Shown: in pieces, positions 2,010 through 27,387 of the stretch
How positions within the stretch are numbered: the stretch's first letter is position 1
Layout: the number at the start of each line of letters is the position of its first letter
Assembly: GCA_022925895.1 (NCBI GenBank)
Contig: JAKSYS010000609.1
Span: 1-38,075, forward strand
From: Fragilaria crotonensis
Taxonomy: Eukaryota > Bacillariophyta > Fragilariophyceae > Fragilariales > Fragilariaceae
Direction: 5' to 3'
Length of the DNA stretch: 38,075 nucleotides
Program-made: the position numbers and the translations under genes
The notes under the pieces: model-generated
Told to the model about the DNA's origin: nothing
Seen by the model: the letters and a program-made list of their open reading frames with translations, nothing else
Databases searched by the model: none

Positions 2010-2637
2010 GCGAGGGAGGAATCATATACCTAAGATATGACTGTAGACAGGAAGTTATATCCTATCGGGAAATGTAGGAATGGTATGTTTAAACAATAAA
2101 TCATACAAACATGAATGGCATTATCCCAAGATACTTAGACGCAAAATAAGCGCATCATGTTGGTTAGCATGTCAGGTGTCAAATTACAACTTGAACTGCC
2201 GTAGAACTAATACCAGGAAATCTAAGCGCTCTGTGTACTGGACTACGTGGAGGTGGAGTACTCGTACCAGGGTACCAAACTCGAACATGAACACATTCTT
2301 CATCCTTCAAACGACTTACCTGTCGATGCCATCGACTGCAACGAACGACGACGTCGTTCGGAGTGGTTGGCGCCATTACCCTTTGCACGATGATTCCAAG
2401 AGACCAGGCACTGTACATTGATGAAAGTAGTGGCATTACTACTACCTCTATACATACTTTAATAAGGTAAGTGATTTGTGTTTTTTTATACCGGTGCGCA
2501 GTACGATAACACAGCAACACTCGGACTTCTCACGATGTTAACGTTCACAGGAAATTACGTCTACTACGTGGATGATCGCACTACTAATTACAAGATAGCA
2601 ACCTTGCCGGCTTCTTGTCGCCCATTCTTGGTTGTTG

Positions 2638-5021
2638 TTATCCTTCGCTGCTATCGTTGTCGCTCATTACGTTGATTGTATCATGGGACCACGACGACGA
2701 CGCTGTTGCTGGTCGCCTGCAACATCAATCTGTTCTGCCATGGCTGCACCGCAGCGACAGCTTTAAGCCAGGGGCGCGGTCTATTAGAAAGTTTCATAGC
2801 TGGTAAGTTGCTCCTGTCGGCATCACTGCCTTTTGAAGGATGACACTCCTGCTCAAGTATTTGGCCCATGTCGCAACAACCCAGTCGTTGTGATGCAGTC
2901 TGTTGTTCACAAAGATGTAACTTACCCTGTTTGCAGGTATTCTGTCCTCTTTCATACAAATTATCAACAATTTCTGGTTTCAGATTCTCAGGAATCTGAC
3001 CGACACCTCCTCCATCATTGCAAACACTGGTCTCCAGTGTAGTTTGCCACATTGCTGATCCTTTTGGGTAAGCGAGCAGGTATGAACTTTCGAAATGCCT
3101 TGATGCTATGTTGCTCTATAACACCATTCTCACCCTCTGCTGCAAAGCTTGGCATGCTTGCAGCCAAAGCTTCCATCCGACATCTCTCTGACACCGACAG
3201 GGAAGGCAAATGTGGCAGGTACATCCCAGAACCTGCGGTAGCTGAACAGCGTACCTCGGTTTCTCGAACAATAACATCACGGCCATCGGCAGCAGTACGA
3301 TCATGCAGTGCAGTCCTGTAGACGAGCTTGACCTTGTTGAATAGCATTGATCTGTTCGCAAACATCGTCGCGAATCCCATTGCGAAAGTCATCTGAATAG
3401 TGATAATCTGGTGTCGACTAATTTGTCCATTTTCAATTCCCTCTCTTCCATTGCATCAAATATGGTTTGTCTTACCAACGTAGATTGTTCGTTCACTCGT
3501 AGTAATGTTGATTGACAAAGTTCAAGTAGTGAAGTCATCAGGTTAAGTTGCATCACGTGAGGGGGTACGCCAGTTGATTTAGACATGGTCTCCGTTGGCT
3601 CAGTAGTTACTTTTGCCTTCAAACGCAGTAGGAGCTCAGGATTTTGAAGCAGAGGTACTGCAGAGAAAGGGTGTCCTCCGTGTCTTCCAGATGTAGCAAG
3701 TAACCAATCAGACGAAATACAACGGATGCCAATATCAACCAGAACTCAATACTGGTTGGGTGTCGTGCAACAATGACACCGTACATAAGCTGCAACGCAT
3801 CATGGATGTCAGCATCTTCAACTGGATTGTCAACCATCCAATGAGGAGGAAGTACAGAAAAAGAACTGTGGTTCGGTCCAGTCCACATAAGCAGCGACCC
3901 AGGTAGGCATCGCCTACTTCTGCAAACTGCCAATAGACATCGAGAACTTTCCGAGGGACCAATCGCCCTGATTTGCAATGGAGGCAATTGGCGGTGGACT
4001 GTTGTTGCACATGACACATGTGTGGCACTGCCTTTCCTAAGCCATGGGCAGACATTGTTCTGATGTACGCCTGCACAATATCCCAGGACGCCATTATGAC
4101 TTGAAGCTGCTCACAGTAGCGATGAGCAGCGCTGCCGACACGAAACCGTGACGAATGAAAACACGCTCAGAGTTATCTCGGAAGGTGTTCTGGTTCAACG
4201 ATAACCAGACACCCAAACTGGCCCGGGACATAGAACCGGGTCCAAAGGGTTACAATAGACAGCTTTGCTGTGTGTCCTCTCACCTTCTTTGTCTGACTTC
4301 GTTGAATCATGACGAATCACAAAATGGTCTTTGAAATCCCGATGTTATGCAATGCCAGTGGGTCAATTGATATGGACCGGGCCATAAGGTTCCACTGTAG
4401 AATTGTCCAAACCCAAACAAATATGTTGCCTCTCAATTGCCCATGTAAGTATCATGCGAAAGAGCGAAAGCTGATTGATCGGCACTCTTCTCATCCATAT
4501 TGCCATTACTGCGAGCCTGCAGTTTCTTTCCTGAATGACTGGAGAAACTGTGCATCTCAGAATAGTATGATGATGACAGTACCTGTTTAACTGTTCTTGC
4601 ACCGAACAGAATAGCATCATGTATCTTACGCATGTGTTCATGCGAGTATATTTTGCAGCTTCACCTTCCTTTGAACCTTTGATTTGTCGCTGCACATGTA
4701 TATATACCATGTCCACACGTAGTCCCTCATACACAATGTCACGGTCACATGTGTGGTAGAACTTCATTGGGTCAGCCTTCTCTTCTGCAGACAAAACACA
4801 GTACCCACTTCAAAGTAGTCTGATACTCAACCATCCACCACACTATCAATTTTTTCATACAAAGACGATGCCCTCGTCGCGTCTCAGCAGAACTTTCTTT
4901 GTTCTTCGTCACATTCACAGCAGATACATGCTCAGCTCGAACTCTACCTCTGCACCAATTGTAACAGCTGAGTCATCGTGACACGGATTCTTCCTCCTCC
5001 TCTGTTGTTGGACCGTGGCAT
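2638..5021 (-). pseudogene. Crypton tyrosine recombinase, copy 1, multiply frameshifted
   Basis: The same protein as in copies 2-4, read on minus from the ATG at 5019-5021 to the stop at 2638-2640. The frame is broken many times, leaving fragments at 4363-4794, 3619-4017, 3735-4094, 3389-3622 and 2681-3052. The H-x-x-R segment region, the Y-nucleophile region and the C-terminal domain can each be found in different frames. The G-run at 3561-3565 has five Gs, which keeps the recombinase and C-terminal parts in one frame here, unlike copies 2 and 3. Breaks are mainly single-base or dinucleotide losses, so sequencing or assembly error is an alternative to real decay. Confidence 0.7.
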
Positions 5022-5318
5022 GATGATAATGGTTGGGAAAATGTCATGACGTGCCAACAAATTAAGTTGGTACCAGGTATGCATCCAAGCAGCACGCCCA
5101 CCAGATTTTGATATTTGACAAAACGTATCTGCATGTACTAATGGAGCAACCTTAAGTGCGGGAAATTCAAAAGTCTATATAAATCAAACAAATTAACGAT
5201 TTTTAACCGCCAACACTCCTTGAAGCACGGACCTGTTTTTGACTAGGTCCAGTTCAAAAGTCATACATTAAAGCATATGATTTTTGGCATGTACCAATGC
5301 TCTACACGTCGTATATAC

Positions 5319-5320
5319 TA
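5319..5320. repeat. Left TA target-site duplication
   Basis: Uninterrupted unit junctions read TATACTAGAGTC. Here the left flank ends in TATACTA and the right flank (12808 on) begins TAGAGTC, so TA is duplicated around the 5321-12807 insertion. Confidence 0.85.
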
Positions 5321-5344
5321 CATCTAAGGGTGCCAAAACTAAGT
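5321..5344 (+). repeat. Left terminal inverted repeat of CACTA-like element
   Basis: Starts CATCTAAGGGTGCCAAAAC and matches the reverse complement of 12784-12807 at 23 of 24 positions. Confidence 0.85.
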
Positions 5345-5389
5345 ACCATAGTTGATACAAGAATTTTTTATCATATTTATTGGAAAAAT

Positions 5390-5535
5390 TTCAGGATTCC
5401 CATATTTAGTTCAGGATTCCTGAAGTTTTTTTCTGGTTTATTTATTTAGTTCAGGATTCCGACATTTGCTGTTTCCTCATTTTTATGAAGAATTTTTTTT
5501 GCTCCTGAACTACTGCAGTATTATTCCTGAGCTTT
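5390..5535. repeat. Left subterminal repeats
   Basis: TTCAGGATTCC occurs at 5390-5400, 5410-5420 and 5450-5460, with inverted-orientation CTCCTGAAC and ATTCCTGAGC forms following to about 5533. Subterminal motif clusters are known transposase-binding sites in CACTA elements; binding here is inferred. Confidence 0.6.
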
Positions 5536-5539
5536 TTTC

Positions 5540-6160
5540 TTCATTATTTCGATGCACATAAAACACCGAGTACTGTACGTGTTTTGTACGAAATACTGGA
5601 GTAGCATGGTGTATCGTGGGTGGACTATTGGTTGTGCCGTACAGTGTACAGTATACAGCGGTTTTACAGTGCTGTCAGCTGGGATACTACCGTCGTACTA
5701 GCGCAATGGTTCGTTGTTGGTTATACGCTGTACATTGTACGTTGTACAAGTAGCTATGGGCGTGTCTGGTGCATGGTGCATGGTGTTCGGTGCCTGCTAC
5801 AGTACGTTTAGTATGGTGCGGTGGTGTACAGTATGGTAGCTACGGCGTGGTCTGTGTGTATGGTAGTGTGGTACTGTGTACGGTACTTTCATTACTATAG
5901 CGCTGTGTTTTGTGTACTACGGTATGGTGGTAGCGTATAATTTTTAGTACAGTATTGTATCATGCGAGTACTCCTATGACACTATGCTACGTACTACGTG
6001 ATCTTGTGTTTTCAACAACAAACCGTAGAATTGTAGGCGATAGTATGTACTGATTAATTCTTTGGCACCAATACCAGTGCATGCTGTATATTTCTACAAG
6101 GAATTAATTCTTTTCAGCCACAGTATTGTCTTTAGTAGAATCGTACGTGATTTTTTTGCG
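5540..6160. other. GTAC/TACG-rich non-coding stretch inside the CACTA-like element
   Basis: Dense in GTAC, TACG and GTGTACAGTAT-like words with no credible coding frame. The 61-63 aa open frames here are made of repeated Y, V, C, W and G and look like products of the base composition. Confidence 0.5.
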
Positions 6161-6164
6161 GGAA

Positions 6165-7155
6165 GTGTCACATCTCACACTTCGTTCGTTGAGCACTCCA
6201 CCACTTGGTGTCATGCCCGACACCACATTGATGCTCCATTATTTGGCATCTTCGCTCCTTCTTCGTCCTTTCCCACCACAAGACATTGCAGTCTTAAGTG
6301 GTAAGACTGCAAATGTGCTTTTTTTCGTGTTGATTGTTGTGTTGATTGAATGTTTCCATCATGGTGATGGTCGAATGAGTTTTGAGGTACTCCCGTTGTG
6401 CCAGTACCGTTGTCTACGTACGGTGCTCAGGGTGCAGTCAAGTACTGGGACGAGTTCGCACGACAGTACCTTGGAGGTTACGGTGATACACTACGTCGCG
6501 CCTGTACAGTCGTCTACCTACCGTACTTAGGGTGCTGCCAAGTACTGGGAGTACGACAGTACCTTGGAGGCTACGGTAATACACTACGTCGCGCCTGTAC
6601 CGTGGTCTACGTACCGTACTTATGGTACTGCCAAGTACTGGGAATACGACAGTACCTTGAGGCTACGGTACAACACTACCTTGTGCATGTACTGTTGTCT
6701 ACGTACTGTACTCATGTTGCTATCAAGTACTGGGAGTATGACAGTACCTTGGTGGGCCTTACGGTTTATTACAATACTACCTTGTGCCTGCTGTACGGTT
6801 GTCGATGTCACAACTTGGTGTCATGCCCAACACCGCATTGAATGTTTCATTCTGTGCTTGTCCCCTTTGCCCTTTGCTTCTTCTTCCTTTCCACTAACAA
6901 GGGCACTTAACTGTCGTTCTTGTTCGTGAGTTTTTGATTGTTTTGTCCTATCAACACAAGAATGTTGTGTTGAATCGTCGTTTCCATCATTGTGAGCAAC
7001 TGATTGATTTGTTGAGGTACTCCTGTTGTGCCTGTACCATTGTCTACGTACTGTACTCATGGTACTGTCAAGTACTGGGACGAGTTCGCACCACGACAGT
7101 ACCTTGGAGGCTTCCGTACAACATTGTGCTGGTACTGTACTCCAGTCTTTCTTGT
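6165..7155 (+). repeat. Tandem and long-period repeats inside the CACTA-like element
   Basis: About four imperfect copies of a ~105-110 bp unit lie at 6390-6790. Each carries CAAGTACTGGGA, then a CGACAGTACCTTGG block and a TGTCTACGTAC-like block. A further copy follows at about 7015-7140. A longer period is superimposed: the block TTGGTGTCATGCCC at about 6207 and 6819 introduces two related ~350-600 bp segments. Open frames across this region (e.g. 6398-6841) translate the repeats and are not considered genes. The position upstream of the protease gene suggests promoter-like or structural DNA, by inference. Confidence 0.65.
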
Positions 7156-7504
7156 TGACGTTGTGTCATTGCACATGATTGTATTTTCCAGCTTTCAATC
7201 TCACATCCTCCTCTTCTTCTCCTTTCATAATTAGGATCCTTGTCGACAAGTGTTGTGCTTCTCATTTTGTTGTTAATTGAGGGAATAAGTACTTCGTCTT
7301 GTGTGCGTGCTTCGATTGAGTTTGTAAGGCAATCTGTCATCTAGAATCCAATATTCGGTCATCTGCGAGATTCTCATTGATTTGAGTGAATCAAACCAGA
7401 TTGATCTACCGGTATTGGTTCTTTTTGTCAGTTGTCTGTTCGCATGCTCAAGAGTTGTATACACGCACACCAGTTGGAGGATTATTCATATTTCAACCAA
7501 CAAA

Positions 7505-9505
7505 ATGGCAGAGGTTCCATCACTGTCCCCTGTCTCTCGTCAGCAAGGAGGAGTCCCTATGGATAAGGCGTACCTGTTCCGTGATGGTATGGATGAATTC
7601 ACACCACCTCCAGGAACAAAGGTCAATAAACAATTCAGATCGCAAGTTCGAGTCTTTTTATCATCACCCGCTCGTGCTGTTTCAGAGTTTCCACTACACA
7701 TGTTCAGCTCTTGGTTTCAAGACCTCCCGTTGTCCAAGATTATGACTCAGAACGAAAGAGAGGACTCCAATGAAATTTGGCAATTCAAGGTAGTTACGTT
7801 GTACCCCACGTGTCCAAACAAACAAAGCTGAGGCGACAAGGTTTAAGTGGGCGACAGAAGCTGCAAGGCAATTCTACAGCACATCATTCAATTCTACAGA
7901 AGCTGATTTGAGCTCTATCGATCGTGCTGTGAATTCTGATCCATCAATAATGATTGTGGGACGTCCTCTTGAAAAGAAGATGACCCCTTCAAGAAATCTG
8001 TCATAGGGTGCCAAGACTCTGTTGTTATTGCATGCATTACATTTCGAAGTGGAATTGGAGATGAAGTTGGTGCGTCGTTGGTGCTTTGGCTGTTGATTGC
8101 AGAATCTGAATCACGGAAGCCATCCGGTCTTACATCCTGGAGACGGCAAGGGTTTGGACGTCTGATGTTAGTAATGCTCATCAAGCATTCAACTTTTTTA
8201 TTATTGTCTCACCGTGAGCTGTCACAATGTCAGGAGAGCCTACATGGTGTGGACATCTACTTGCAGTGTCCCCATGACGAGCCAAAGGAATTCTACCAAG
8301 CCTGTGGGTTCCGTCAAATCAATCTCCAAGACACAACTGGCATTGAGTTTCTTCCCAAGACAATTGCCGACACCTTAATGGACGAGACCACAGGTGGATT
8401 TGCATGGATTGTACCAGAGTCTGAGGAGCACTGCATTATCCCTCTGATGAAACTTTCTTCCGGTTCCCTTTTGAACAGTGCTGCTAACAGTGCTGCTGTC
8501 GAGGTTGTTGAAAGCAACAGTGATGTGATCAGTGCAACAAAAATGATGGTTCCCCGCGTGCTGTTGTTGAGTCAGAGGAAGAAAGCAAGATCAATATAGT
8601 CGCAAAATCGAGTGGTGGTTCCCCTTCCTCGTGAGCAGTGATGTTTTGGAGATTGTGCAGAGCAACAATGAGACAGTCAGTGCACGGAATGATGGTAGCA
8701 ACACCAGAAAAACATTTGTATGGTGCCAATACCCTTCATCAACAATCGATCTCCAAGATGATGTTGCAAGTGGAGCATTGCTGACAAATGCAGATCTGGA
8801 AGAGGCATTTACCGGTCTGGACTATTTGAACAACCTTCTTCCACCACCATTTGGTGACCTGGTTCTGCCTGACCAGTTGCGTGGTTTTGGAGAAATGGGA
8901 TCACAGGAAAGGCTTGATCATAGCAAAAGTGGTGGGAAAACTTGGATGGCCACCCGTGAGCTGCAAATGATGACTTCACTCCTCATGAGGGATGGCAGGT
9001 ATCACACATCAGTTGCAATCCTGTCTTTTGACGACATGCAGGTAATTCAAGGTTGCTTTGCGTCTTCAACGTCATCTATCTGCAAAGAAGTACGAAAACG
9101 ACTTGATGGTAGCCAATGGAGCCGATCATGCAGAATGTCTTGCCCTTGTGAAAAAAGGTATGGAAGTTCTAAGGAAGAACTTTACCAGAGTATGATGACC
9201 AAATGAATCGTGTTGTGAAGGAAGTCCTGTTGTTCTATCAGGGCTTCTGCAGAAGGTTGATTGTGTTTCCTACAATCTCAGCAACGATCATTGGGGGCAA
9301 CATTTGTTTTCAATGCTGGAGACGTTGTGGCTGCCACGGATGATGTATCATGCCTCCGGACATGTTTTTTCGCTATTGCAGTCTTCATCCCTCCGGCACG
9401 AGAAAAATTCCAAACAATGTCGGTGTTGTCTGGTTCCTGAACCTTGCCTTCAGTTACCAGGAGCAAAGGAAAAACAGTGCAAATGATAGCAGCACTCCAA
9501 ACAAG
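7505..9505 (+). pseudogene. GNAT acetyltransferase + Ulp1-like protease fusion, frameshifted and truncated
   Basis: Reading from ATG 7505, an N-terminal segment (to 7800) is followed, after frame changes near 7800-7830 and 7970-7980, by a GNAT-like region. That region has a strand (VVIACITFR, about 8026-8050), the acetyl-CoA-binding loop R-R-Q-G-F-G-R (about 8140), VDIYLQC, and EFYQACGF (about 8290-8315). After further frame changes comes an Ulp1/C48-type region: ELQMMTSLLMRDGRY (about 8959-9003) and, at about 9280-9300, NDHWG with the likely catalytic His, then GVVWFLNLA (about 9420-9450). The expected Asp/Gln/Cys part (D-x-x-N-C-G) is missing because homology stops near 9505 where the opposite-strand transposase begins. 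Known: C48 proteases remove SUMO-like proteins and occur in plant and algal transposons. Family assignment rests on motifs only. Confidence 0.6.
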
Positions 9506-10386
9506 ATGAAGTGGCTCACCCAAAACATTGCTGCCTTTCAATTTGTGGTAGGGCTTCAGGGGATCATTGATATCGATGGCAAGGTTTTCTGCAGTCATAA
9601 TGCTTGGATTTTGCAGCAAACTTAGCAACTGTGAAGCGAAGTCAAAACAAATCACATCTGATGGAGAGCCATGATGTACATCCACTCTTCGTACAAAGGG
9701 AAGCAGTCTTTTCCATTACGAACTGAGTTGATCAGGGCATCAACATTTTTGGCACGCGAGTCCACCCACTGGGTTGTAAGAATAATTATCAGCAGATGCA
9801 GAGCGTGCCCACTCCAGGACTTGACCAAAAGTGTAGTCGGGTGCATTGGCATGGTCCAGGATTTTGAGGAGAGAAACAGTCCACTTCTGATCGGTAGTAT
9901 ACATGAAGTTTGAACGAAATGATGGGGCTTCCACATCTTCATCAAGTGCAGAATTCGTACAGGTAAGAATGTTTGGGTCATCACTTAACATGGACAAATC
10001 ATCACTTTTGTTGCAGTCCTCGATGTCCTCACAAGAAGTGCTTTCAACTTCCACACCATTGCCAGCCGGAAACTGCAGAAGGTTGTCTGTGCCATCAAAA
10101 TCCATGTGGGGATCATTCACCATATGTCGCCTTAAAGGGCAGGCCTCTTGTTACTTGTGCATGTGATATTCCCATCCTCATGAAGACGGCGACGGTGTGA
10201 AGCAGAAGCCCCATGTGTTGCTGCATGGTGTGATTTCTTCACAATGAAATTATAACACCCGATGTTTCTATCAATATGCTGTGTATATGCTGCTTGATTG
10301 GAAAAGGGTTTCTTGTTGAAATTCAGGCAGAAGGGGTTTTGACAGAAGAGCAGGGGTGCCTTTGAGGAAGCAGACGAGGACAACAT
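9505..10386 (-). pseudogene. CACTA/Plavaka-type transposase, N-terminal part only
   Basis: On the minus strand from an ATG at about 10384-10386, an N-terminal zinc-finger-like segment (two Cys, then the F-S-N-x-x-x-Y-x-x-H segment, then Cys) is followed by an acidic linker. Then come conserved blocks D-Q-K-W-T-V-S-L-L-K-I-L-D-H, A-P-D-Y-T-F-G-Q-V and A-S-A-D-N-Y-S-Y-N-P (9740-10123), followed in other frames by SDVICFDF and LLSLLQN-P-S-I-M-T (9550-9670). I recognise these blocks from large transposase-like proteins repeated in diatom genomes and related to fungal Plavaka transposases. The catalytic DDE region should follow, but similarity ends after a G-E-P-L motif near 9510. Breaks in frame occur near 10130, 9740 and 9670. 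Inferred role: DNA binding and excision of this element, now lost in this copy. Confidence 0.55.
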
Positions 10387-10744
10387 TTTGAAGAGAAGGT
10401 TTTGAAGAAAGGGTTTTGAAGAGGACGAGTGAAGTGAAAATGAGGTGTTGAAATTGACAGGACACAGATTCACTAAACAGAAGTTCGGGAAAGCGTGCAT
10501 TCAAATTGTACATTTACTTTCGGTACATTTTTGGTGTATGTAAAGAATGAAGGGGGGTGTGGTATGAATTCAAAATTTGAAAACCCTGCATGAATGTGTA
10601 GAACCTACATACCAACTCGGTACTTGGTATGAAATTCAAATGGTGGCAAAAAAGACTATCCCACAAACAGGATTTTCAGTGTTCAAAATTTGGCGCACAA
10701 TCGGAAAGTTTTTCACACAACAAGGAAGCACCACAAATACAACC

Positions 10745-12247
10745 ATGGCATCAATGGCACACCAAACAGCAGCAGGCATGACTGCCTTAAAGCCCAGCTC
10801 TAGGAAACAAAGGAGAGACTTCATAAGAGGCGTGAACAGTGACCACAGATCCCAATGATCTGATTCAAAGTGACAACGAGGAGGAGGAGGAGGAAGAAGT
10901 GCCACGGAAAATGGATGCAAAACTAGGACAGAAGCATGCATACGGAAATCCACCATCCCTACCTTCAACTATTAAAGTCGGAAATCAAGTGACAGCCAAC
11001 TAACATCATCGGTTCCAGGGCTAAGCAGCATAGTGGACATGAGCATGACGGAAAATACAGAAGAGAATCAAATCAGTGTGATCAAGACTTGCATCAAAAA
11101 ACACGTGTTCTCTATTTGGAAGTTCTATCAAAAGACTATCATTCTCATTTCAGTGAAGATGAGAAAACACTTTGTGGCTTTATCATGAAGCACACAAACA
11201 TTCGAGGAACCGAAAACTGGTGGCTTGGGATGCGGAGAATAGTTGTAAAACACACACTGATCTTCGAACAATGCAATAAAAACATGCAAACGAAATTCAA
11301 AGGTGAGGAATTGAAGTGAGTGTACTTTGCCAAAGCCGAGCATACTCACACTCACTTGCATTCAACATCAAACACCTTGCATCCAGAGGGATTCACTTCC
11401 AATTTAGGAACGTATGAACACAGCCTATACAGTGGAAGCGAGGAAGAAACCAGTTACCTCCTCAAGATGAGGGATAATATCTGCTACTATGCCCAAATCA
11501 TAGACACCTATGCCCCATGCATTGTCGGCAGCAGCAAGTGGAATAACACTATCAACATGGAGAACCACTGTGCAACAACTGACAGAAAAGTATGGAGCAA
11601 GAAAATCCTGTCCATAAGTGATGAAGCATTCATTTTGCTGTGCCTGATCAACTATGGGAAGAGGTGGTTCGCGGAATTAGTTAAGACAGAGAAAATGGTA
11701 AGTTTATCCGAATGGTTTGTCACAGAACAAACAACAAGAAACTGACTTGTTTTGTTATCACTTGTTGGAAACAGCGAATTGGTACATGGACTGATGAGGA
11801 CAACAACAACCTACCCGTAAGTTACACTATGATACTAAATGAAATGAAAAAACCACATCCTAACTTCTGACCAATCTTTGCAATACCATGTTCGGCAGCC
11901 ACCACTTTACACATTCTCCAGGAACAAGGGTGCTCATGATAATGGGGGAGGCTGTGGTTGGTCACAGGTGGGAATGAGGAAATACGATGAATTATACATG
12001 GCCATCAAGAATGATAGAAAGAAATCAACCACCCCAACATTCAACCAGGAACTACTTAAAATGTTTCTGTCCAGAAGGAAAAAGGAGTCTGGCCGGGGTC
12101 AGGAAACAATTTGATGACAAGGGTAAGAAACGCCCACACAAGTGCATTGATGTATTTGACGAGGACTCTGATGAGGAGGATGATAACTACTCCAGTCATC
12201 TTGCTCCTGAACTTGTCTACAGTGAATTGAAAGTGGAGGCAGTTTAG
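10745..12247 (+). pseudogene. Third transposon gene (unnamed diatom family), intron-bearing, partly broken
   Basis: Several in-phase pieces join through GT-AG introns: 11303-11386 (84 bp), 11698-11774 (77 bp) and 11817-11898 (82 bp). The spliced product reads across a W-T-D-E-D-N segment into P-P-L-Y-T-F-S and then the block G-W-S-Q-V-G-M-R-K-Y-D-E-L followed by a basic N-D-R-K. Earlier blocks include SDEAFILLCLINYGKRW (about 11617-11667) and a YAPCIVG motif. The acidic and basic patches (E-rich at about 10880-10900, D/E-rich near 12160-12180) suggest a DNA-interacting protein. Frame is interrupted between about 10858 and 11090 and at about 12090. The pattern matches a hypothetical-protein family I associate with diatom transposons; no function is known to me. 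Confidence 0.55.
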
Positions 12248-12807
12248 AATAGATCAGACACTTAGTAATGAATAGTAGAATGGTTCATCAAAGCCACACG
12301 AATAGGCACAATTAAAACTAATCTCCAACAAAAGTTAAAATGAGCGACAATAACATCTATTATATGAACAATGTCAGCTCAGAACTACTGAGGTGATTAC
12401 TTCATACACACTACACAGCAAACTTCTTCTTTTCGAATATCTAATTCAGGAATTGAAATTCATGATCACAAATGAAGAAGTGGTATAGTTCATATATTTA
12501 GAGTCCAAGAGTTCAGGAATCCCACCCGAGTGTTAGTAAAATGAGTCAGTGAAATTCAGGAATTGAAATTTTGGAGCTCAGGAATGCAAAGTATGAGCTC
12601 CTATGCAAGAGATGAAAAAGTTCAGGAAACATAAATTTCAGAGTTCAGGAATACGAGGAAACCCGCTTCATACACATGATGTACAAGCTCTTTAGTCCTA
12701 AGTTTTTACCTATATTTTAGGTAAAAATTATGAACAAAAAATTCTCATATCAAAGATAATTGGTTTTTCATATCCAAGAGCCGACTTGGTTTTGGCACCC
12801 TTAGATG
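12248..12807. repeat. Right subterminal region and terminal inverted repeat of CACTA-like element
   Basis: TTCAGGAAT-type motifs occur at 12445, 12512, 12555, 12578 (CTCAGGAAT), 12621 and 12644. The right TIR ends GTTTTGGCACCCTTAGATG at 12807, the reverse complement of the left terminus. No coding frame was recognised. Confidence 0.7.
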
Positions 12808-12917
12808 TAGAGTCTACGGCAAACGGACATTAGGTACACCTGGAAATCATATACTAATCGTATGACTTTCGTGCTAATACCTGCACTGGAACATATGCTA
12901 GCCTCAGTTATCTATAA
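12808..12917 (-). mobile_element. Crypton-like unit, copy 1 (right end remnant)
   Basis: This ~110 bp segment (GAGTCTACGGCAAACGG through TCAGTTATCTATAA) is the right end of copy 1, cut off by the 5321-12807 insertion. It starts with the second TA of the target duplication and joins copy 2 at the common unit boundary. Confidence 0.75.
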
Positions 12918-13566
12918 GCGAGGGAGGAAATCATATACCTAAGATATGACTGTAGACAGGAAGTTATATCCTATCGGGAAATGTAGGAATGGTATGTTTA
13001 AAACAATAAATCATACAAACATGAATGGCATTATCCCAAGATACTTAGACGCAAAATAAGCGCATCATGTTGGTTAGCATGTCAGGTGTCAAATTACAAC
13101 TTCTGAACTGCCGTAGAACTAATACCAGGAAATCTAAGTGCTCTGTGTACTCGGACTACGTGGAGTGTGGAGTACTCGTACCAGGGTACCAAACTCTCGA
13201 AACATGAACACATTCTTTACATCCTTCTCAAGCGACCCTACCTGTCGATGCCATCGACTGCAACGAACAACGACGTCGTTCGGGTGGTTGGCGCCATTAC
13301 CCTTTGCACGACGATTCCCAAGAGACCAGGCACTGTACATTGATGAAAGTAGTGGCATTACTACTACCTCTATACATACTTTAATAAGGTAAGTGATTTG
13401 TGTTTTTTTTTATACTCGGAGTGCGAGTACGATAACACAGCAACACTCGGACTTCTCACGATGTTAACGTTCACAGGAAATTACGTCTACTACGTGGATG
13501 ATCGCACTACTAATTACAAGATAGCAACCTTGCCGGCGCTTCTTGCTCGCCCATTCTTGGTTGTTG

Positions 13567-15982
13567 TTATCCTTCGCTGCTATCGTTGTCGCTCATTACG
13601 TTGATTGTATCATGGGGACCACGACGACGCGCTGTTGCTGGTCGCCTGCAACATCAATCTGTTCTGCCATGGCTGCACCGTTGCGACGCTTTAAGCCAGC
13701 AGGCGCGGTCTATTAGAAAGTTTCATAGCTGGTAAGTTGCTCCTGTCGGCATCACTGCCTTTTTGAAGGATGACACTCCTGCTCAAGTATTTGGCCCATG
13801 TCGCAACAACCCAGTCGTTGTGATGCAGTCTGTTGTTCACAAAGATGTAACTTACCCTTGTTTGCAGGTATTCTGTCCCTCTTTCATACAAATTATCAAC
13901 AATTTCTGGTTCAGATTCTCAGGAATCTGACCGACACCCTCCTCCATCATTGCAAACACTGGTCTCCAGTGTAGTTTATACATTGCTGATCCTTTTGGGT
14001 AAGCGAGCAGGTATGAACTTTCGAAATGCCTTGATGCTATGTTGCTCTATAACACCATTCTCACCCTCTGCTGCAAAGCTTGGCATGCCTTGCAGCCAAA
14101 GCTTCCATCCGACATCTCTCTTGACACCGACAGGGAAGGCAAATGTGGCAGGTACATCCCAGAACCTGCCACGGTAGCTGAACAGCGTACCTCGGTTTCC
14201 TCGAACAATAACATCACGGCCATCGGCAGCAGTACGATCATGCAGTGCAGGCTCCTGTAGACGAGCTTGACCTTGTTGAATAGCATTGATCTGTTCGCAA
14301 ACATCGTCGCGAATCCCATTGCGAAAGTCATCTAGAATAGTGATAATCTGGTGTCGACTAATTTGTCCATTTTCAATCGCCCTCTCTTCCATTGCATCAA
14401 ATATGGTTTGTCTTACCAACGTAGATTGTTCGTTCACTCGTAGTAATGTTGATTGACAAAGTTCAAGTAGTGAAGTCATCAGGTTAAGTTGCATCACGTG
14501 AGGGGTACGCCAGTTGATTTAGACATGGTCTCCGTTGGCTCAGTAGTTACTTTTGCCTTCAAACGCAGTAGGAGCTCAGGATTTTGAAGCAGAGGTACTG
14601 CAGAGAAAGGGTGTCCTCCGTGTCTTCCAGATGTAGCAAGTAACCAATCAGACGCAAATACAACGGATGCCAATACTCGAACCAGAACTCCAATACTGGT
14701 TGGGTGTCGTGCAACAATGACACCGTACATAAGCTGCAACGCATCATGGATGTCAGCATCTTCAACTGGATTGTCAACCATCCAATGAGGAGGAAGTACA
14801 GAAAAAGAACTGTGGTTCGGGTCCAGTCCACATAAGCAGCAACCTAGGTAGGCATCGCCTACTTCTGCAAACTGCCAATAGACATCGAGAACTTTTCCGA
14901 GGGACCAATCGCCCCGATTTGCAATGGAGGCAATTGGCGGTGGGACTGTTGTTGCACATGACACATGTGTGGCACTGCCTTTCCTTAAGCCATGGGCAGA
15001 CATTGTTCTGATGTACGTCTGCACAATATCCCAGGACGCTTTCATTATGACTTGAAGCTGCTCACAGTAGCGATGAGCAGCGCTGCCGACACGAGTACCG
15101 TGACGAATGAAAACACGTTCAGAGTTATCTCGGAAGGTGTTCTGGTTCAACGATAACCAGACACCCAAACTGACGCCGGGACATAGAACCGGGTCCAAAG
15201 GGTTACAATAGACAGCTTTGCTGTGTGTCCTCTCACCTTCTTTGTCTGACTTCGTTGAATCATGACGAATCACAAAATGGTCTTTGGAAATCCCGATGTT
15301 ATGCAATGCCAGTGGGTCAATTGATATGGACCGGGCCATAAGGTTCCACTGTAGAATTGTCAAACCCAAACAAATATGTTGCCTCTCAATTGCCCATGTA
15401 AGTATCATGCGAAAGAGCGAAAAGCTGATTGGATCGGCACTCTTCTCATCCATATTGCCATTACTGCGAGCGTCTGCAGTTTCTTTCCTGAATGACTGGA
15501 GAAAACTGTGCATCTCAGAATAGTATGATGATGACAGTACCTGTTTAACTGTTCTTGCACCGAACAGAATAGCATCATGTATCTTACGCATGTGTTCATG
15601 CGAGTATATTTTTGCAGCTTCACCTTCCTTTGGAACCTTTGATTTTGTCGCTGCCATGTATGCTATGACCATGTCCACACGTAGTCCCTCATACACAATG
15701 TCACGGTCACATGTGTGGTAGAACTTCATTGGGTCAGCCTTCTCTTCTGCAGACAAAACACAGTACCCACTTCAAAGTAGTCTGGATACTCAACCATCCA
15801 CCACACTATCAATTTTTTCATACAAAGCGATGCCTCGTCGCGTCTCAGCAGAACTTTCTTTGTTCTTCGTCACATTCACAGCAGATACATGCTCAGCTCG
15901 AACCTCTACCTCTGCACCAATTGTAACAGCTGAGTCATCGGTGACACATTCTTCCTCCTCCTCTGTTGTTGGACCGTGGCAT
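13567..15982 (-). CDS. Crypton-type tyrosine recombinase, copy 2 (best-preserved catalytic region)
   Basis: The main open frame, 15756 to 14494 (420 aa), holds the tyrosine recombinase domain. Counting from its first Met, Arg I is likely R142 (W-N-L-M-A-R), a lysine follows near 169-172, H-G-L-R is at 255-258, W284 is in R-G-D-W, and the nucleophile is Y293 (L-D-V-Y-W). Upstream, an N-terminal exon probably starts at 15982. A 48 bp GT-AG interval (about 15749-15796) would join it in phase to E-E-K-A-D-P, but this is inference. Downstream, a C-terminal region (13976-14497, other frame) resembles GCR1_C-like domains of Cryptons (W-K-L-W-L-Q-G-M). A run of four Gs at 14502-14505 puts the two parts out of frame, and more breaks follow below 13976. 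Known role of the family: cut-and-rejoin of a circular DNA element at short cores. It is the most intact recombinase domain of the four. Confidence 0.75.
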
Positions 15983-16136
15983 GATGATAATGGTTGGGAA
16001 AATGTCATGACGTGCCAACAAATTAAGTTGGTACCAGGTACGCATCCAAGCAGCACGCCCACCAGATTTTGATATTTGACAAAACGTATCTGCATGTACT
16101 AATGGAGCAACCTTAAGTGCGGGAAATTCAAAAGTC

Positions 16137-16145
16137 TATATAAAT
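16137..16145. promoter_or_regulatory. TATA-like sequence upstream of the recombinase gene
   Basis: TATATAAAT lies about 155 bp upstream of the presumed minus-strand start at 15982 and is conserved in all copies. It could equally serve plus-strand transcription; no initiator was identified. Confidence 0.25.
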
Positions 16146-16389
16146 CAAACAAATTAACGATTTTTAACCGCCAACACTCCTTGAAGCACGGACCTGTTTT
16201 TGACTAGGTCCAGTTCAAAAGTCATACATTAAAGCATATGATTTTTGGCATGTACCAATGCTCTACACGTCGTATATACTAGAGTCTACGGCAAACGGAC
16301 ATTAGGTACACCTGGAAATCATATACTAATCGTATGACTTTCGTGCTAATACCTGCACTGGAACATATGCTAGCCTCAGTTATCTATAA

Positions 16390-19300
16390 GCGAGGGAAGA
16401 AATCATATACCTAAGATATGACTGTAGACAGGAAGTTATATCCTATCGGGAAATGTAGGAATGGTATGTTTAAAACAATAAATCATACAAACATGAATGG
16501 CATTATCCCAAGATACTTAGACGCAAAATAAGCGCATCATGTTGGTTAGCATGTCAGGTGTCAAATTACAACTTCTGAACTGCCGTAGAACTAATACCAG
16601 GAAATCTAAGTGCTCTGTGTACTCGGACTACGTGGAGTGTGGAGTACTCGTACCAGGGTACCAAACTCTCGAAACATGAACACATTCTTTACATCCTTCT
16701 CAAACGACCCTTCCTGTCGATGCCATCGACTGCAACGAACGACGACGTCGTTCGGAGTGGTTGGCGCCATTACCCTTTGCACGATGATTCCCAAGAGACC
16801 AGGCACTGTACATTGATGAAAGTAGTGGCATTACTACTACCTCTATACATACTTTAATAAGGTAAGTGATTTGTGTTTTTTTATACTCGGAGTGCGAGTA
16901 CGATAACACAGCAACACTCGGACTTCTCACGATGTTAACGTTCACAGGAAATTACGTCTACTACGTGGATGATCGCACTACTAATTACAAGATAGCAACC
17001 TTGCCGGCGCTTCTTGCTCGCCCATTCTTGGTTGTTGTTATCCTTCGCTGCTATCGTTGTCGCTCATTACGTTGATTGTATCATGGGGACCACGACGACG
17101 ACGCTGTTGCTGGTCGCCTGCAACATCAATCTGTTCTGCCATGGCTGCACCGTTGCGGCGCTTTAAGCCAGCAGGGCGCGGTCTATTAGAAAGTTTCATA
17201 GCTGGTAAGTTGCTCCTGTCGGCATCACTGCCTTTTTGAAGGATGACACTCCTGCTCAAGTATTTGGCCCATGTCGCAACAACCCAGTCGTTGTGATGCA
17301 GTCTGTTGTTCACAAAGATGTAACTTACCCTTGTTTGCAGGTATTCTGTCCCTCTTTCATACAAATTATCAACAATTTCTGGTTTCAGATTCTCAGGAAT
17401 CTGACCGACACCCTCCTCCATCATTGCAAACACTGGTCTCCAGTGTAGTTTATACACATTGCTGATCCTTTTGGGTAAGCGAGCAGGTATGAACTTTCGA
17501 AATGCCTTGATGCTATGTTGCTCTATAACACCATTCTCACCCTCTGCTGCAAAGCTTGGCATGCCTTGCAGCCAAAGCTTCCATCCGACATCTCTCTTGA
17601 CACCGACAGGGAAGGCAAATGTGGCAGGTACATCCCAGAACCTGCCACGGTAGCTGAACAGCGTACCTCGGTTTCCTCGAACAATAACATCACGGCCATC
17701 GGCAGCAGTACGATCATGCAGTGCAGGCTCCTGTAGACGAGCTTGACCTTGTTGAATAGCATTGATCTGTTCGCGAACATCGTCGCGAATCCCATTGCGA
17801 AAGTCATCTAGAATAGTGATAATCTGGTGTCGACTAATTTGTCCATTTTCAATCGCCCTCTCTTCCATTGCATCAAATATGGTTTGTCTTACCAACGTAG
17901 ATTGTTCGTTCACTCGTAGTAATGTTGATTGACAAAGTTCAAGTAGTGAAGTCATCAGGTTAAGTTGCATCACGTGAGGGGGGTACGCCAGTTGATTTAG
18001 ACATGGTCTCCGTTGGCTCAGTAGTTACTTTTGCCTTCAAACGCAGTAGGAGCTCAGGATTTTGAAGCAGAGGTACTGCAGAGAAAGGGTGTCCTCCGTG
18101 TCTTCCAGATGTAGCAAGTAACCAATCAGACGCAAATACAACGGATGCCAATACTCGAACCAGAACTCCAATACTGGTTGGGTGTCGTGCAACAATGACA
18201 CCGTACATAAGCTGCAACGCATCATGGATGTCAGCATCTTCAACTGGATTGTCAACCATCCAATGAGGAGGAAGTACAGAAAAAGAACTGTGGTTCGGGT
18301 CCAGTCCACATAAGCAGCGACCTAGGTAGGCATCGCCTACTTCTGCAAACTGCCAATAGACATCGAGAACTTTTCCGAGGGGACCAATCGCCCCGATTTG
18401 CAATGGAGGCAATTGGCGGTGGGACTGTTGTTGCACATGACACATGTGTGGCACTGCCTTTCCTTAAGCCATGGGCAGACATTGTTCTGATGTACGTCTG
18501 CACAATATCCCAGGACGCTTTCATTATGACTTGAAGCTGCTCACAGTAGCGATGAGCAGCGCTGCCGACACGAGTACCGTGACGAATGAAAACACGTTCA
18601 GAGTTATCTCGGAAGGTGTTCTGGTTCAACGATAACCAGACACCCAAACTGACGCCGGGACATAGAACCGGGTCCAAAGGGTTACAATAGACAGCTTTGC
18701 TGTGTGTCCTCTCACCTTCTTTGTCTGACTTCGTTGAATCATGACGAATCACAAAATGGTCTTCGGAAATCCCGATGTTATGCAATGCCAGTGGGTCAAT
18801 TGATATGGACCGGGCCATAAGGTTCCACTGTAGAATTGTCCAAACCCAAACAAATATGTTGCCTCTCTCAATTGCCCATGTAAGTATCATGCGAAAGAGC
18901 GAAAAGCTGATTGGATCGGCACTCTTCTCATCCATATTGCCATTACTGCGAGCGTCTGCAGTTTCTTTCCTGAATGACTGGAGAAAACTGTGCATCTCAG
19001 AATAGTATGATGATGACAGTACCTGTTTAACTGTTCTTGCACCGAACAGAATAGCATCATGTATCTTACGCATGTGTTCATGCGAGTATATTTTTGCAGC
19101 TTCACCTTCCTTTGGAACCTTTGATTTTGTCGCTGCCATGTATGCTATGACCATGTCCACACGTAGTCCCTCATACACAATGTCACGGTCACATGTGTGG
19201 TAGAACTTCATTGGGTCAGCCTTCTCTTCTGCAGACAAAACACAGTACCCACTTCAAAGTAGTCTGGATACTCAACCATCCACCACACTATCAATTTTTC

Positions 19301-19860
19301 ATACGAAGACGATGCCCCGTCGCGTCTCAGCAGAACTTTCTTTGTTCTTCGTCACATTCACAGCAGATACATGCTCAGCTCGAACCTCTACCTCTGCACC
19401 AATTGTAACAGCTGAGTCATCGGTGACACGGATTCTTCCTCCTCCTCTGTTGTTGGACCGTGGCATGATGATAATGGTTGGGAAAATGTCATGACGTGCC
19501 AACAAATTAAGTTGGTACCAGTACATCAAGCAGCACGCCCACCAGATTTTGATATTTGACAAATATCTGCATGTACTAATGGAGCAACCTTAAGTGCGGG
19601 AAATTCAAAAGTCTATATAAATCAAACAAATTAACGATTTTTAACCGCCAACACTCCTTGAAGCACGGACCTGTTTTTGACTAGGTCCAGTTCAAAATCA
19701 TACATTAAAGCATATGATTTTGGCATGTACCAATGCTCTACACGTCGTATATACTAGAGTCTACGGCAAACGGACATTAGGTACACCAAATCATATACTA
19801 ATCGTATGACTTTCGTGCTAATACCTGCACTGGAACATATGCTAGCCTCAGTTATCTATA
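16390..19860 (-). mobile_element. Crypton-like unit, copy 3
   Basis: A complete 3,471 bp unit, nearly identical to copy 2 and directly joined to copies 2 and 4. Together copies 2 and 3 define the unit length and the junction sequence. A few small deletions cluster near its right end (about 19511-19865). Confidence 0.8.
17038..19466 (-). pseudogene. Crypton tyrosine recombinase, copy 3, two frameshifts, intact C-terminal domain
   Basis: Three long minus frames overlap: 18252-19238 (328 aa, N-terminal exon joint through H-x-x-R and W), 17960-18454 (164 aa, containing the Tyr nucleophile context L-D-V-Y-W), and 17038-17973 (311 aa, the whole C-terminal region to the natural stop at 17038). The breaks are a G insertion in the run around 18377-18381, just before the nucleophile, and a six-G run at 17978-17983. 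The N-terminal exon (start at 19466) reads M-P-R-S-N-N-R-G-G-G with an acidic continuation. The C-terminal frame shows a coiled-coil-like start (about residues 1-75), then G-R-F-W-D-V-P, W-K-L-W-L-Q-G-M and a basic tail with R-R-R-R. This is the only copy with an uninterrupted C-terminal domain. Confidence 0.75.
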
Positions 19861-22800
19861 GCGAGGAGGAAATCATATACCTAAGATATGACTGTAGACA
19901 GGAAGTTATATCCTATCGGGAAATGTAGGAATGGTATGTTTAAAACAATAAATCATACAAACATGAATGGCATTATCCCAAGATACTTAGACGCAAAATA
20001 AGCGCATCATGTTGGTTAGCATGTCAGGTGTCAAATTACAACTTCTGAACTGCCGTAGAACTAATACCAGGAAATCTAAGTGCTCTGTGTACTCGGACTA
20101 CGTGGAGTGTGGAGTACTCGTACCAGGGTACCAAACTCTCGAAACATGAACACATTCTTTACATCCTTCTCAAACGACCCTACCTGTCGATGCCATCGAC
20201 TGCAACGAACGACGACGTCGTTCGGAGTGGTTGGCGCCATTACCCTTTGCACGACGATTCCCAAGAGACCAGGCACTGTACATTGATGAAAGTAGTGGCA
20301 TTACTACTACCTCTATACATACTTTAATAAGGTAAGTGATTTGTGTTTTTTTATACCGGAGTGCGATAACACAGCAACACTCGGACTTCTCGATGTTAAC
20401 GTTCACAGGAAATTACGTCTACTACGTGGATGATCGCACTACTAATTACAAGATAGCAACCTTGCGGCGCTTCTTGCTCGCCCATTCTTGGTTGTTGTTA
20501 TCCTTCGCTGCTATCGTTGTCGCTCATTACGTTGATTGTATCATGGGGACCACGACGACGACGCTGTTGCTGGTCGCCTGCAACATCAATCTGTTCTGCC
20601 ATGGCTGCACCGTTGCGGCTTTAAGCCAGGGCGCGGTCTATTAGAAAGTTTCATAGCTGGTAAGTTGCTCCTGTCGGCATCACTGCCTTTTTGAAGGATG
20701 ACACTCCTGCTCAAGTATTTGGCCCATGTCGCAACAACCCAGTCGTTGTGATGCAGTCTGTTGTTCACAAAGATGTAACTTACCCTTGTTTGCAGGTATT
20801 CTGTCCCTCTTTCATACAAATTATCAACAATTTCTGGTTTCAGATTCTCAGGAATCTGACCGACACCCTCCTCCATCATTGCAAACACTGGTCTCCAGTG
20901 TAGTTTATACATTGCTGATCCTTTTGGGTAGCGAGCAGGTATGAACTTTGAAATGCCTTGATGCTATGTTGCTCTATAACACCATTCTCACCCTCTGCTG
21001 CAAAGCTTGGCATGCCTTGCAGCCAAAGCTCCATCCGACATCTCTTGACACCGACAGGAAGGCAAATGTAGGTACATCCCAGAACCTGCCACGGTGGCTG
21101 AACAGCGTACCTCGGTTTCCTCGAACAATAACATCACGGCCATCGGCAGCAGTGCGATCATGCAGTGCAGGCTCCTGTAGGCGAGCTTGACCTTGTTGAA
21201 TAGCATTGATCTGTTCGCAAACATCGTCGCGAATCCCATTGCGAAAGTCATCTAGAATAGTGATAATCTGGTGTCGACTAATTTGTCCATTTTCAATCGC
21301 CCTCTCTTCCATTGCATCAAATATGGTTTGTCTTACCAACGTAGATTGTTCGTTCACTCGTAGTAATGTTGATTGACAAAGTTCAAGTAGTGAAGTCATC
21401 AGGTTAAGTTGCATCACGTGAGGGGGTACGCCAGTTGATTTAGACATGGTCTCCGTTGGCTCAGTAGTTACTTTTGCCTTCAAGCGCGGTAGGGCTCAGG
21501 ATTTTGAAGCAGAGGTACTGCAGAGAAGGGTGTCCTCCGTGTCTTCCAGATGTAGCAAGTAACCAATCAGACGCAAATACAACGGATGCCAATACTCGAA
21601 CCAGAACTCCAATACTGGTTGGGTGTCGTGCAACAATGACACCGTACATAAGCTGCAACGCATCATGGATGTCAGCATCTTCAACTGGATTGTCAACCAT
21701 CCAATGAGGAGGAAGTACAGAAAAAGAACTGTGGTTGGTCCAGTCCACATAAGCAGCAACCTAGGTAGGCATCGCCTACTTCTGCAAACTGCCAATAGAC
21801 ATCGAGAACTTTTCCGGGACCAATCGCCCCGATTTGCAATGGAGGCAATTGGCGGTGGGACTGTTGTTGCACATGACACATGTGTGGCACTGCCTTTCCT
21901 TAAGCCATGGGCAGACATTGTTCTGATGTACGTCTGCACAATATCCCAGGACGCTTTCATTATGACTTGAAGCTGCTCACAGTAGCGATGAGCAGCGCTG
22001 CCGACACTGATACCGTGACGAATGAAAACACGTTCAGATTATCTCGGAAGGTGTTCTGGTTCAACGATAACCAGACACCCAAACTGGCGCTGGGACATAG
22101 AACCGGGTCCAAAGGGTTACAATAGACAGCTTTGCTGTGTGTCCTCTCACCTTCTTTGTCTGACCGTTGAATCATGACGAATCACAAAATGGTCTTTGGA
22201 AATCGATGTTATGCAATGCCAGTGGGTCAATTGATATGGACCGGGCCATAAGGTTCCACTGTAGAATTGTCCAAACCCAAACAAATATGTTGCCTCTCAA
22301 TTGCCCATGTAAGTATCATGCGAAAGAGCGAAAGCTGATTGGATCAGCACTCTTCTCATCCATATTGCCATTACTGCAGCGTCTGCAGTTTCTTTCCTGA
22401 ATGACTGGAAAACTGTGCATCTCAGAATAGTATGATGATGACAGTACCTGTTTAACTGTTCTTGCACCGAACAGAATAGCATCATGTATCTTACGCATGT
22501 GTTCATGCAGTATATTTTGCAGCTTCACCTTCCTTTGGAACCTTTGATTTTGTCGCTGCCATGTATGCTATGACCATGTCCACACGTAGTCCCTCATACA
22601 CAATGTCACGGTCACATGTGTGGTAGAACTTCATTGGGTCAGCCTTCTCTTCTGCAGACAAAACACAGTACCCACTTCAAAGTAGTCTGGATACTCAACC
22701 ATCCACCACACTATCAATTTTTTCATACAAAGACGATGCCCTCGTCGCGTCTCAGCAGAACTTTCTTTGTTCTTCGTCACATTCACAGCAGATACATGCT

Positions 22801-23285
22801 CAGCTCGAACCTCTACCTCTGCACAATTGTAACAGCTGAGTCATCGGTGACACGGATTCCTCCTCCTCTGTTGTTGGACAGGCATGATGATAATGGTTGG
22901 GAAAATGTCATGACGTGCCAACAAATTAAGTTGGTACCAGAAACGCATCAAACAGCGCCCACCAGATTTTGATATTTGACAAAACGTATCTGCATGTACT
23001 AATGGAGCAACCTTAAGTGCAGGAAATTCAAAAGTCTATATAAATCAAACAAATTAACGATTTTTAACCGCCAACACTCCTTGAAGCACGGACCTGTTTT
23101 TGACTAGGTCCAGTTCAAAAGTCATACATTAAAGCATATGATTTTTGGCATGTACCAATGCTCTACACGTCGTATATACTAGAGTCTACGGCAAACGGAC
23201 ATTAGGTACACCTGGAAATCATATACTAATCGTATGACTTTCGTGCTAATACCTGCACTGGAACATATGCTAGCCTCAGTTATCT
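19861..23285 (-). mobile_element. Crypton-like unit, copy 4 (right end of the array)
   Basis: Last unit, about 3,425 bp. It ends with the normal right-end sequence GCCTCAGTTATCT at 23285, after which non-repeat DNA begins (GTTGGTCC). The array therefore contains a whole number of units. This copy is shorter than copies 2 and 3 mainly through scattered 1-4 nt deletions. Confidence 0.75.
20498..22885 (-). pseudogene. Crypton tyrosine recombinase, copy 4, multiply frameshifted
   Basis: Same gene as copies 1-3, start at about 22885 and stop at 20498-20500. The longest fragments are 20974-21483 (169 aa) and 21496-21960 (154 aa, carrying S-A-H-G-L-R-K-G). The five-G run at 21422-21426 leaves the recombinase tail and C-terminal domain in one frame, which suggests that five Gs is the ancestral state. 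Other breaks are small deletions relative to copies 2 and 3, for example around 21780, 21060, 20930 and 20610. Confidence 0.7.
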
Positions 23286-23526
23286 GTTGGTCCTTGTGAA
23301 TCTCTGCGGATTTGCATTCCAATCGGATCTCACAGCGTCGCTTGTGCTCGTCTGGCCCACCGGCCCACCGCTCACCGCACATACTGTAGTACCTCGACCG
23401 TAACTTGCCGACTGCAGCAGTCCAGTACCTGGTACCAGAGTCTGATGCCCAGCATCAAGATCATTCGTAAAAATCATCGTCGGAGCTTCGAGTAGGAGTG
23501 CCTGTCATAATGCAAACATAACAATC

Positions 23527-26607: not shown

Positions 26608-27387
26608 CTTGTGAACGACGTGCGACAAGGACTGAAGTGCAACAACAATAAGACGAGCATACGGGAGCCCGTGTATCTGCCGTTTGACCGCGCGTACAAG
26701 TACCAGGTATGGAAGCAGTATCTTCTCACACACAGGCATCGGATGTAAATCCTGAATGCGGATCGGACAGGGAAGCTGCTCGGCGAATGAGAAATTTGGC
26801 AACCTTCGATTCAGAATTAACCGTTGTTTTCCAGACCTGTTCAGACTTCAGACTGTGATACGCAGGTCCCGTAATTGATTGTTATACGCGAAGATTATTT
26901 ATTGTAGAAGTCGCTGGGTTTGAATTTATATATGGTATACAGATTTGAATGTTAATAGGCATGACACCCTCGGGAGGGCACTATGATATTGCGCATTGTA
27001 CTCGGAGTACTTCTACCGGTAGTATGTGTATCATACATGTTTCGTACCATCTATCGTATGTGTGAAATGCCCGACTCTTCACGTTTGATAGAAAGCTACC
27101 GCCACCAACCAACCTGGTATCATACTCGTACAAAATGTACCTCCTTGCTACTGTAGTTGCACGTGGCACGTGGCATGCGGAAGTTGCATACACAGACGTC
27201 TGCATCCAACAGTCACTTTTCCCTCCCAAACTCGAATATCTGCACTGGCACATCTCTAAATTTTAAACGCTGGGGTTGCTCTTCTCAAAATTCGGCTCCC
27301 TTCGCCTGCGCATCGACATAGCACTGCGCCCATCCTCTCCTCGCACACCACCACCAAAGGAGCACCTTCCGCGTGTGAAACTTGAGG
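26608..27387. promoter_or_regulatory. Divergent intergenic region
   Basis: Lies between the minus-strand MOSC start and the plus-strand small gene at 27388, so it probably holds both promoters. A perfect palindrome GTACTCGGAGTAC occurs at 26998-27010. Open frames of 90 and 77 aa on minus have no support. Confidence 0.4.

Follow-up and report, generated by a model that had tools for sequence, protein, structure and literature searches.

The window, by which we mean the whole 38,075-bp stretch of DNA analysed, corresponds to C569:1-38075 in a genome assembly of 62.1 Mb and 881 contigs. Self-comparison placed four head-to-tail units, each ~3.42-3.47 kb long, at 2010-23285, and none of the three internal joints (12917/12918, 16389/16390 and 19860/19861) contains any spacer. 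The features of the locus are listed here.

1990-2012, plus strand: left junction of array and flank; the cleaner copy on contig C769 reads tacCTA followed directly by TAAGCGAGG.
2010-5320, minus strand: unit 1, part before a later insert; unit start at 2010, recombinase gene on the minus strand, 96.8-97.0% identity to units 2 and 3.
5321-12807, unstranded: later insert in unit 1, 7,487 bp, with terminal inverted repeats (TIRs) and flanking TA; outside the Crypton-like unit proper.
12810-12917, minus strand: unit 1, part after the insert; 12808-12913 is 100% identical to 23180-23285.
12898-12937, plus strand: internal joint, element end CCTCAGTTATCTA plus element start TAAGCGAGG, as expected at a circle junction.
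12918-16389, minus strand: unit 2, 3,472 bp, delimited by self-comparison.
14494-15756, minus strand: 420-aa recombinase domain in unit 2, in which R142, K169, H255, R258 and W284 are followed, nine residues beyond the Trp, by a Tyr.
16390-19860, minus strand: unit 3, 3,471 bp, its recombinase spread among frames of which the longest are 18252-19238 and 17038-17973.
19861-23285, minus strand: unit 4, 3,425 bp, with numerous small deletions.
23270-23300, plus strand: right junction of array and flank, CAGTTATCT followed directly by gttggtcc and lacking one base of the usual CTA core.

The original prediction of four abutting units of ~3.47 kb was borne out in their orientation and in their spacerless joints, but unit 1 is split by the 7,487-bp insert. 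As had also been proposed, the array consists of whole units, starting at a unit start (2010) and stopping at a unit end (23285). A boundary common to all four starts was found only in part: the ten-base unit start GCGAGGGAGG is exact at 2010 and 12918 only, while the start at 16390 reads GCGAGGGAAG and that at 19861 reads GCGAGGAGG. Two exact occurrences of this ten-base start were seen in the window and in none of 100 shuffles, and a chance origin of the repeated unit start is excluded. Units 2 and 3 are separated by 14 substitutions over 3,456 aligned bases (0.41%). The residues R-K-H-R-W-Y, attributed beforehand to every unit, lie together in one open frame in unit 2 alone; a frameshift separates Trp from Tyr in unit 3, and the reading frames of units 1 and 4 are interrupted at many points.

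When compared with other copies, unit 1 shows 44 deletions and 4 insertions and unit 4 shows 30 and 0, and this excess of deletions over insertions looks like an error of the consensus and not like a biological feature. Contig C769 repeats window positions 1-12807 at 98% and ends where the insert ends. The window copy of unit 1 differs from unit 2 by 1.35%, compared with 0.24% for the C769 copy. Whereas units 1 and 4 carry deletion-biased noise, the window's flank and insert are in good agreement with C769.

The insert at 5321-12807 is bounded by TIRs (CATCTAAGGGTGCCAAAAC) with TA at both edges, and it contains a 93-bp tandem repeat at 6460-6752 and several broken frames. An imperfect inverted match (77%) between 5257-5344 and 12784-12869 runs from the insert TIRs out into the unit sequence on either side and is a palindrome-like stretch close to the unit's right end. 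Elsewhere in the window, a 29-bp repeat forms two short arrays at 36035-36298, and a 74-bp sequence occurs as an inverted pair, 97% identical, at 32400-32472 and 33369-33442. Host-type genes adjoin the array (25792-26802, 30411-30989 and 37084-37821), with Pfam matches to a MOSC domain and CBS domains; one host-type frame beside the array we take, by eye, to be GET3/ArsA-like.

That the unit's gene encodes a tyrosine recombinase was predicted at the outset and is upheld by alignment of its catalytic residues with those of Cre relatives. Across ten proteins of the genome, R142, K169, H255 and R258 are invariant and W284 is almost invariant, and in an alignment of eight proteins the catalytic W and Y are both invariant. 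Profile comparison by hhalign with Cre, Dre, lambda Int and four phage relatives gave an E-value of 3.9e-5 and a probability of 70%, with all six residues (R, K, H-x-x-R, W and Y) co-aligned; R173, K201, H289 and R292 of Cre are invariant among the Cre/Dre/lambda Int/phage set. A related copy on C658 retains an intact frame of 809 aa. The aligned residues support placing the unit gene in the tyrosine recombinase superfamily. Searches with the recombinase gave no family above cut-off in Pfam, no convincing relative in PHROGs (matches were below cut-off or unrelated) and no recombinase among the matches of a PDB sequence search, and a pattern scan of viral contigs gave 34 matches, none of them confirmed. 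A single-sequence AlphaFold2 model of the window protein was unusable (pLDDT 35.5). An open 659-aa frame at C764:352286-354262 encodes a distant relative of the recombinase (26% identity), possibly another lineage or a domesticated gene.

Copies elsewhere in the genome, which the original prediction had proposed to look for, were found, solo copies among them. Genome searches for relatives gave at least 39 matches in one search and at least 71 in another; matching contigs such as C58, C144, C346, C515, C367, C712, C130, C63, C32, C482 and C872 were left out of the counts. Self-comparison of 17 stretches revealed unit-length direct repeats in three (C471, C219 and C443), and seven contigs bear arrays: C569, the window, with four units, C219 with three, and C327, C262, C471, C443 and C79 with two each. 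C219 and C443 were scored as one locus, giving six array loci. Two units are visible in the C79 array, the first truncated by the contig end, and the C262 array, at whose edge the contig begins, has no right flank. The arrays comprise four end-families with unit lengths of ~3.47, 3.38, 3.78 and 4.19 kb, and C79 belongs to a 2.4-kb group having only its ends in common with the 4.19-kb units. Matching ends are found on solo copies in the window, C327 and TAC families; in the C471 family, all further copies seen are short elements with only the ends in common. Such short elements (~1.9-2.6 kb) share scarcely more than their two ends with the larger families and are probably non-autonomous partners, one of which (C79) is itself tandem.

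Several of these loci carry further repeats or genes. The window-family copy on C770/C321 is interrupted by ~11.9 kb of other DNA with several frames. From 8851 upward, the C327 stretch consists of a high-copy repeat (at least 40 matches; 194 first-look candidates), of which a ~590-bp part recurs ~11 kb apart and which ends ~86 bp from the dimer; this repeat is probably an LTR retrotransposon. Beside C262 lies what we take, by eye, to be a plastid-type presequence, which would hint at a stramenopile host capable of photosynthesis.

In the four families, the internal joint is composed of the right end of one unit and the left end of the next, reading CAGTTAT-CTA-TAAGCG, CAGTTAT-GTA-TAAGCG, CTACTAT-CTG-TAAGTG and GGCTCC-TAC-ATAAC, respectively. 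The joint at 12918 recurs at 16390, has lost one base at 19861, and is matched by counterparts on C262 and C327. When the joints of the first two families were searched for as patterns, four exact matches and four with three mismatches were returned; the reversed control returned six, so only the exact joints of these families count. At the outer ends, the left flank mostly has the three-base core and the right end mostly carries the core before the flank. As scored by eye, this rule holds in the two window-like families for 7 of 11 left ends (C769, C525, C658, C262, C327, C162 and C534, but not C807, C106, C467 and C770/C321, the last with an aberrant left end) and for 6 of 9 right ends (C770, C525, C658, C327, C650 and C534, but not the window, which has CT, C106 and C467). 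The corresponding search in the TAC family turned up four internal joints without mismatch as well as ten right ends, with TACGTA in 10/10, under a mismatch limit that favours TACGTA-type matches; among the deviants of this family, C355 reads TACGGA and is absent from the search matches, and the left core of C81 is CAC. C616, in the C471 family, deviates too. The dyad at the joint is imperfect (8/10) and was reached by 80 and 89 of 2000 shuffles in two families; in the other two it did not rise above chance in the shuffle test. The joint sequence hints at an inverted-repeat binding site in those two families only, and does so weakly. One might also speculate that a six-base exchange region, of which the first three bases are required to match, would fit the junctions as well.

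One insertion point was also found empty. Contig C200 passes through the C443 insertion point without an element: the empty site reads CTACTACTAC followed by GTGGG, and the filled site reads CTACTACTACTAC followed by ATAACC, two units, and then GGCTCCTAC followed by GTAGG, where the left side ends in CTACTAC. The filled C443 site has one CTA more than the empty C200 site. The left part of C200 matches the C443 left flank at 97% over C200:2086-4810 and at 84-86% in the pieces adjoining the site, and its right part matches the C443 right flank at 79% over the first 126 columns and at 96% thereafter (20 mismatches in 896). Given this divergence, and since each side also differs in length (C200 is longer by ~1.27 kb to the left, C443 by ~0.63 kb to the right), C200 represents a different haplotype or a close paralogue. 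Its arrangement bears on C219, which has the right flank in common with C443 (2 mismatches in 1,508) and a left flank unrelated over ~10 kb: C200 backs the C443 arrangement, so the left join of C219 is a rearrangement or misjoin, and the order of its units is equally doubtful. Comparable searches gave no element-free allele of the window locus with the right flank as sole query, none of the C262 locus with the left flank, and none of the C327 locus with the right flank or among the matches listed for the left flank, which were mostly to the high-copy repeat.

Divergence between neighbouring units varied among the arrays. Units 1 and 2 of C219 differ by 0.24% from each other and by 0.53-0.69% from the solo copy on C250, compared with 3.2-3.3% from their neighbour, unit 3. 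The two C443 units are 2.07% apart. In C79, the neighbours are 1.48% apart and the upstream unit differs by 0.36% from the one unit that C81 carries; the flank common to C79 and C81 at their contig ends has 0 mismatches in 2,144, so the two contigs, instead of being alleles, may overlap on a single chromosome, C81 then being a collapse. Copies on C525 and C770 lie 0.34-0.49% from window units 2 and 3, which are no closer to each other than to these copies. All four units of C327 and C262 lie within 0.00-0.15% of one another, the C327 pair with 1 substitution in 3,375, and the two C471 units are 0.16% apart. Adjacent units are in some cases, as in C219, more divergent than units at separate loci, so the arrays are not simply local duplications. 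Unit 1 of the window, as read from its C769 copy, counts against our main reading: it is 0.24% from unit 2 and either is 0.42-0.44% from a solo copy, a closeness that local duplication would give. In the C219 and C443 units, patterns of shared substitutions swap partners blockwise, and by this pattern the units look mosaic. These comparisons suggest that distinct elements join the arrays and that the arrays undergo sequence exchange.

The assembly thus displays catalytic residues, exact ends, six array loci, an element-free site, unlike neighbours and mosaic-looking units. We consider it probable, with moderate confidence, that circular units insert into the ends of resident copies and that homologous recombination then reshapes the arrays. 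A Crypton-like DNA transposon whose one conserved gene is the tyrosine recombinase would leave the chromosome as a circle, the joined ends of which would form the recombination site (CCTCAGTTATCTATAAGCGAGG in the window family). The recombinase would join this circle site to targets with a common three-base core (CTA, GTA, CTG or TAC, depending on the family). Because a resident element carries a half-site at each end, a circle would join to it more readily than to random DNA; such an insertion, at one resident end or the other, would give head-to-tail whole units with a circle-type joint between them, and arrays would grow, shrink by excision and become reshuffled via homologous recombination between units. 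What we presume here is circle formation, enzyme activity and a preference for resident ends, the last of these from arrays at six loci in a 62-Mb genome. The earlier proposal that a whole-unit tandem arises by integration beside a resident copy, or from a multimeric circle, gained from the exact joints at six loci, the element-free counterpart and the neighbours of different ancestry. Recombinase-driven insertion of circles is our preferred reading, given that one and the same position is used in joints, at solo ends and at the empty site, and that adjacent units can differ in ancestry. More tentatively, arrays could be the normal state of these elements, with the circle site favouring resident ends and the arrays serving as reservoirs that shed circles, capture lineages and breed hybrids.

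The main rival holds that circles enter by host homologous recombination, or that dimers expand by unequal crossing-over, while the recombinase only makes circles. A crossing anywhere in a resident unit would give identical joints, near-identity of the C327 units is in keeping with homologous or unequal exchange, and the mosaic-looking C219 and C443 units point to exchange among copies, which suggests that homologous exchange does occur. However, the first dimer cannot arise from one unit by unequal exchange, and tandem units 1.5-3.3% apart suggest that distinct elements entered, though homologous entry is compatible with this; we judge this rival unlikely. One-step insertion of a dimeric or multimeric circle, or of an excised array segment, may explain the near-identical dimers of C327 and C262 (0.00-0.15%), which lie beside different left flanks, but C262 is without a right flank and may be a chimeric contig, and the neighbours in C219, C443 and C79 differ by 1.5-3.3%, leaving this an improbable account of the arrays. 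There is also a slim chance that the assembly strung together copies from different loci, and the conflicting flanks of C219 and C443, the ends of C769 and C262 at repeat edges and the deletion-biased noise in units 1 and 4 are what such an artefact could produce; base-exact element ends in four end-families (two with related ends) would not be expected from it, C443 joins the two flanks that C200 joins element-free, and the C471 and C327 arrays lie within contigs of 160 and 483 kb. Satellite-like duplication in situ of a single element, the alternative named in the original prediction and one that leaves the recombinase without a role, is in keeping with the high identity within some arrays but has next to no probability and was rejected: wherever arrays were examined, their breakpoints coincided with element ends, and nearest relatives are not always neighbours.

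By comparison with published descriptions the elements are likely Cryptons, and they may be Cryptons in the strict sense. Pfam found no transposase or reverse transcriptase domain in three long frames of units 2-3 and in P0001, an absence that is weak since the recombinase itself has no Pfam match. Long terminal inverted repeats pairing the unit ends were absent from the self-comparison (matches >60 bp), as in Cryptons, and with E-values up to 10 admitted, Pfam gave P0001 no match to GCR1_C, a domain that marks CryptonF. Cryptons are described as having 4- to 6-bp terminal direct repeats, which were not found in animal Cryptons (PMC3212892), so this trait is not universal; the terminal direct repeats here are of three bases (CTA, GTA, CTG or TAC by family), with exceptions. 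CryptonS, a stramenopile group, has been described in a diatom as well as in oomycetes (Kojima and Jurka 2011, PMC3212892). TATGG termini are not the rule here, C769 and most other copies shown having TATAAG and the window left junction TATGG, but TATGG ends characterize a majority of CryptonS, so the mismatch is not decisive (PMC3212892). Like CryptonS as described there, these elements have a tyrosine recombinase as main gene, short direct repeats, a proposed circle and no long TIRs; unlike them, they have a three-base, family-dependent core, whereas CryptonS mostly have TATGG and very few copies in most hosts (PMC3212892). According to the same source, Crypton transposition had not been studied as of 2011, and a circle was proposed by analogy (PMC3212892). 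In that paper the word 'tandem' occurs once, in a reference title on P elements, and among the literature matches listed, judged from titles and abstract openings on Cryptons and with subscription papers and Repbase outside this scope, there was no report of Crypton arrays. The internal joints show the letters required of a circle junction in four end-families and the empty site gives the target, so both intermediate and site are directly testable.

Among better-known recombinases, P1 Cre and lambda Int have the same order of R, K, H-x-x-R, W and Y, and in Cre too the W-to-Y distance is nine residues, but the similarity is distant (hhalign probability 70%). Tandem multimers of a eukaryotic DNA transposon are described for KolobokP, which differs in having a DDD/E transposase and a long terminal direct repeat between neighbours that is absent here (PMC9587614). 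In the SXT/R391 family, as in our reading, site-specific elements form tandem arrays that give rise to mosaic hybrids by homologous recombination; those elements are bacterial, conjugative and confined to one chromosomal site, whereas here a small transposon has many targets in a eukaryote-type genome (PMC2786100). If our reading is true, these arrays would be a eukaryotic counterpart of the tandem accretion known from bacterial integrating-conjugative-element arrays.
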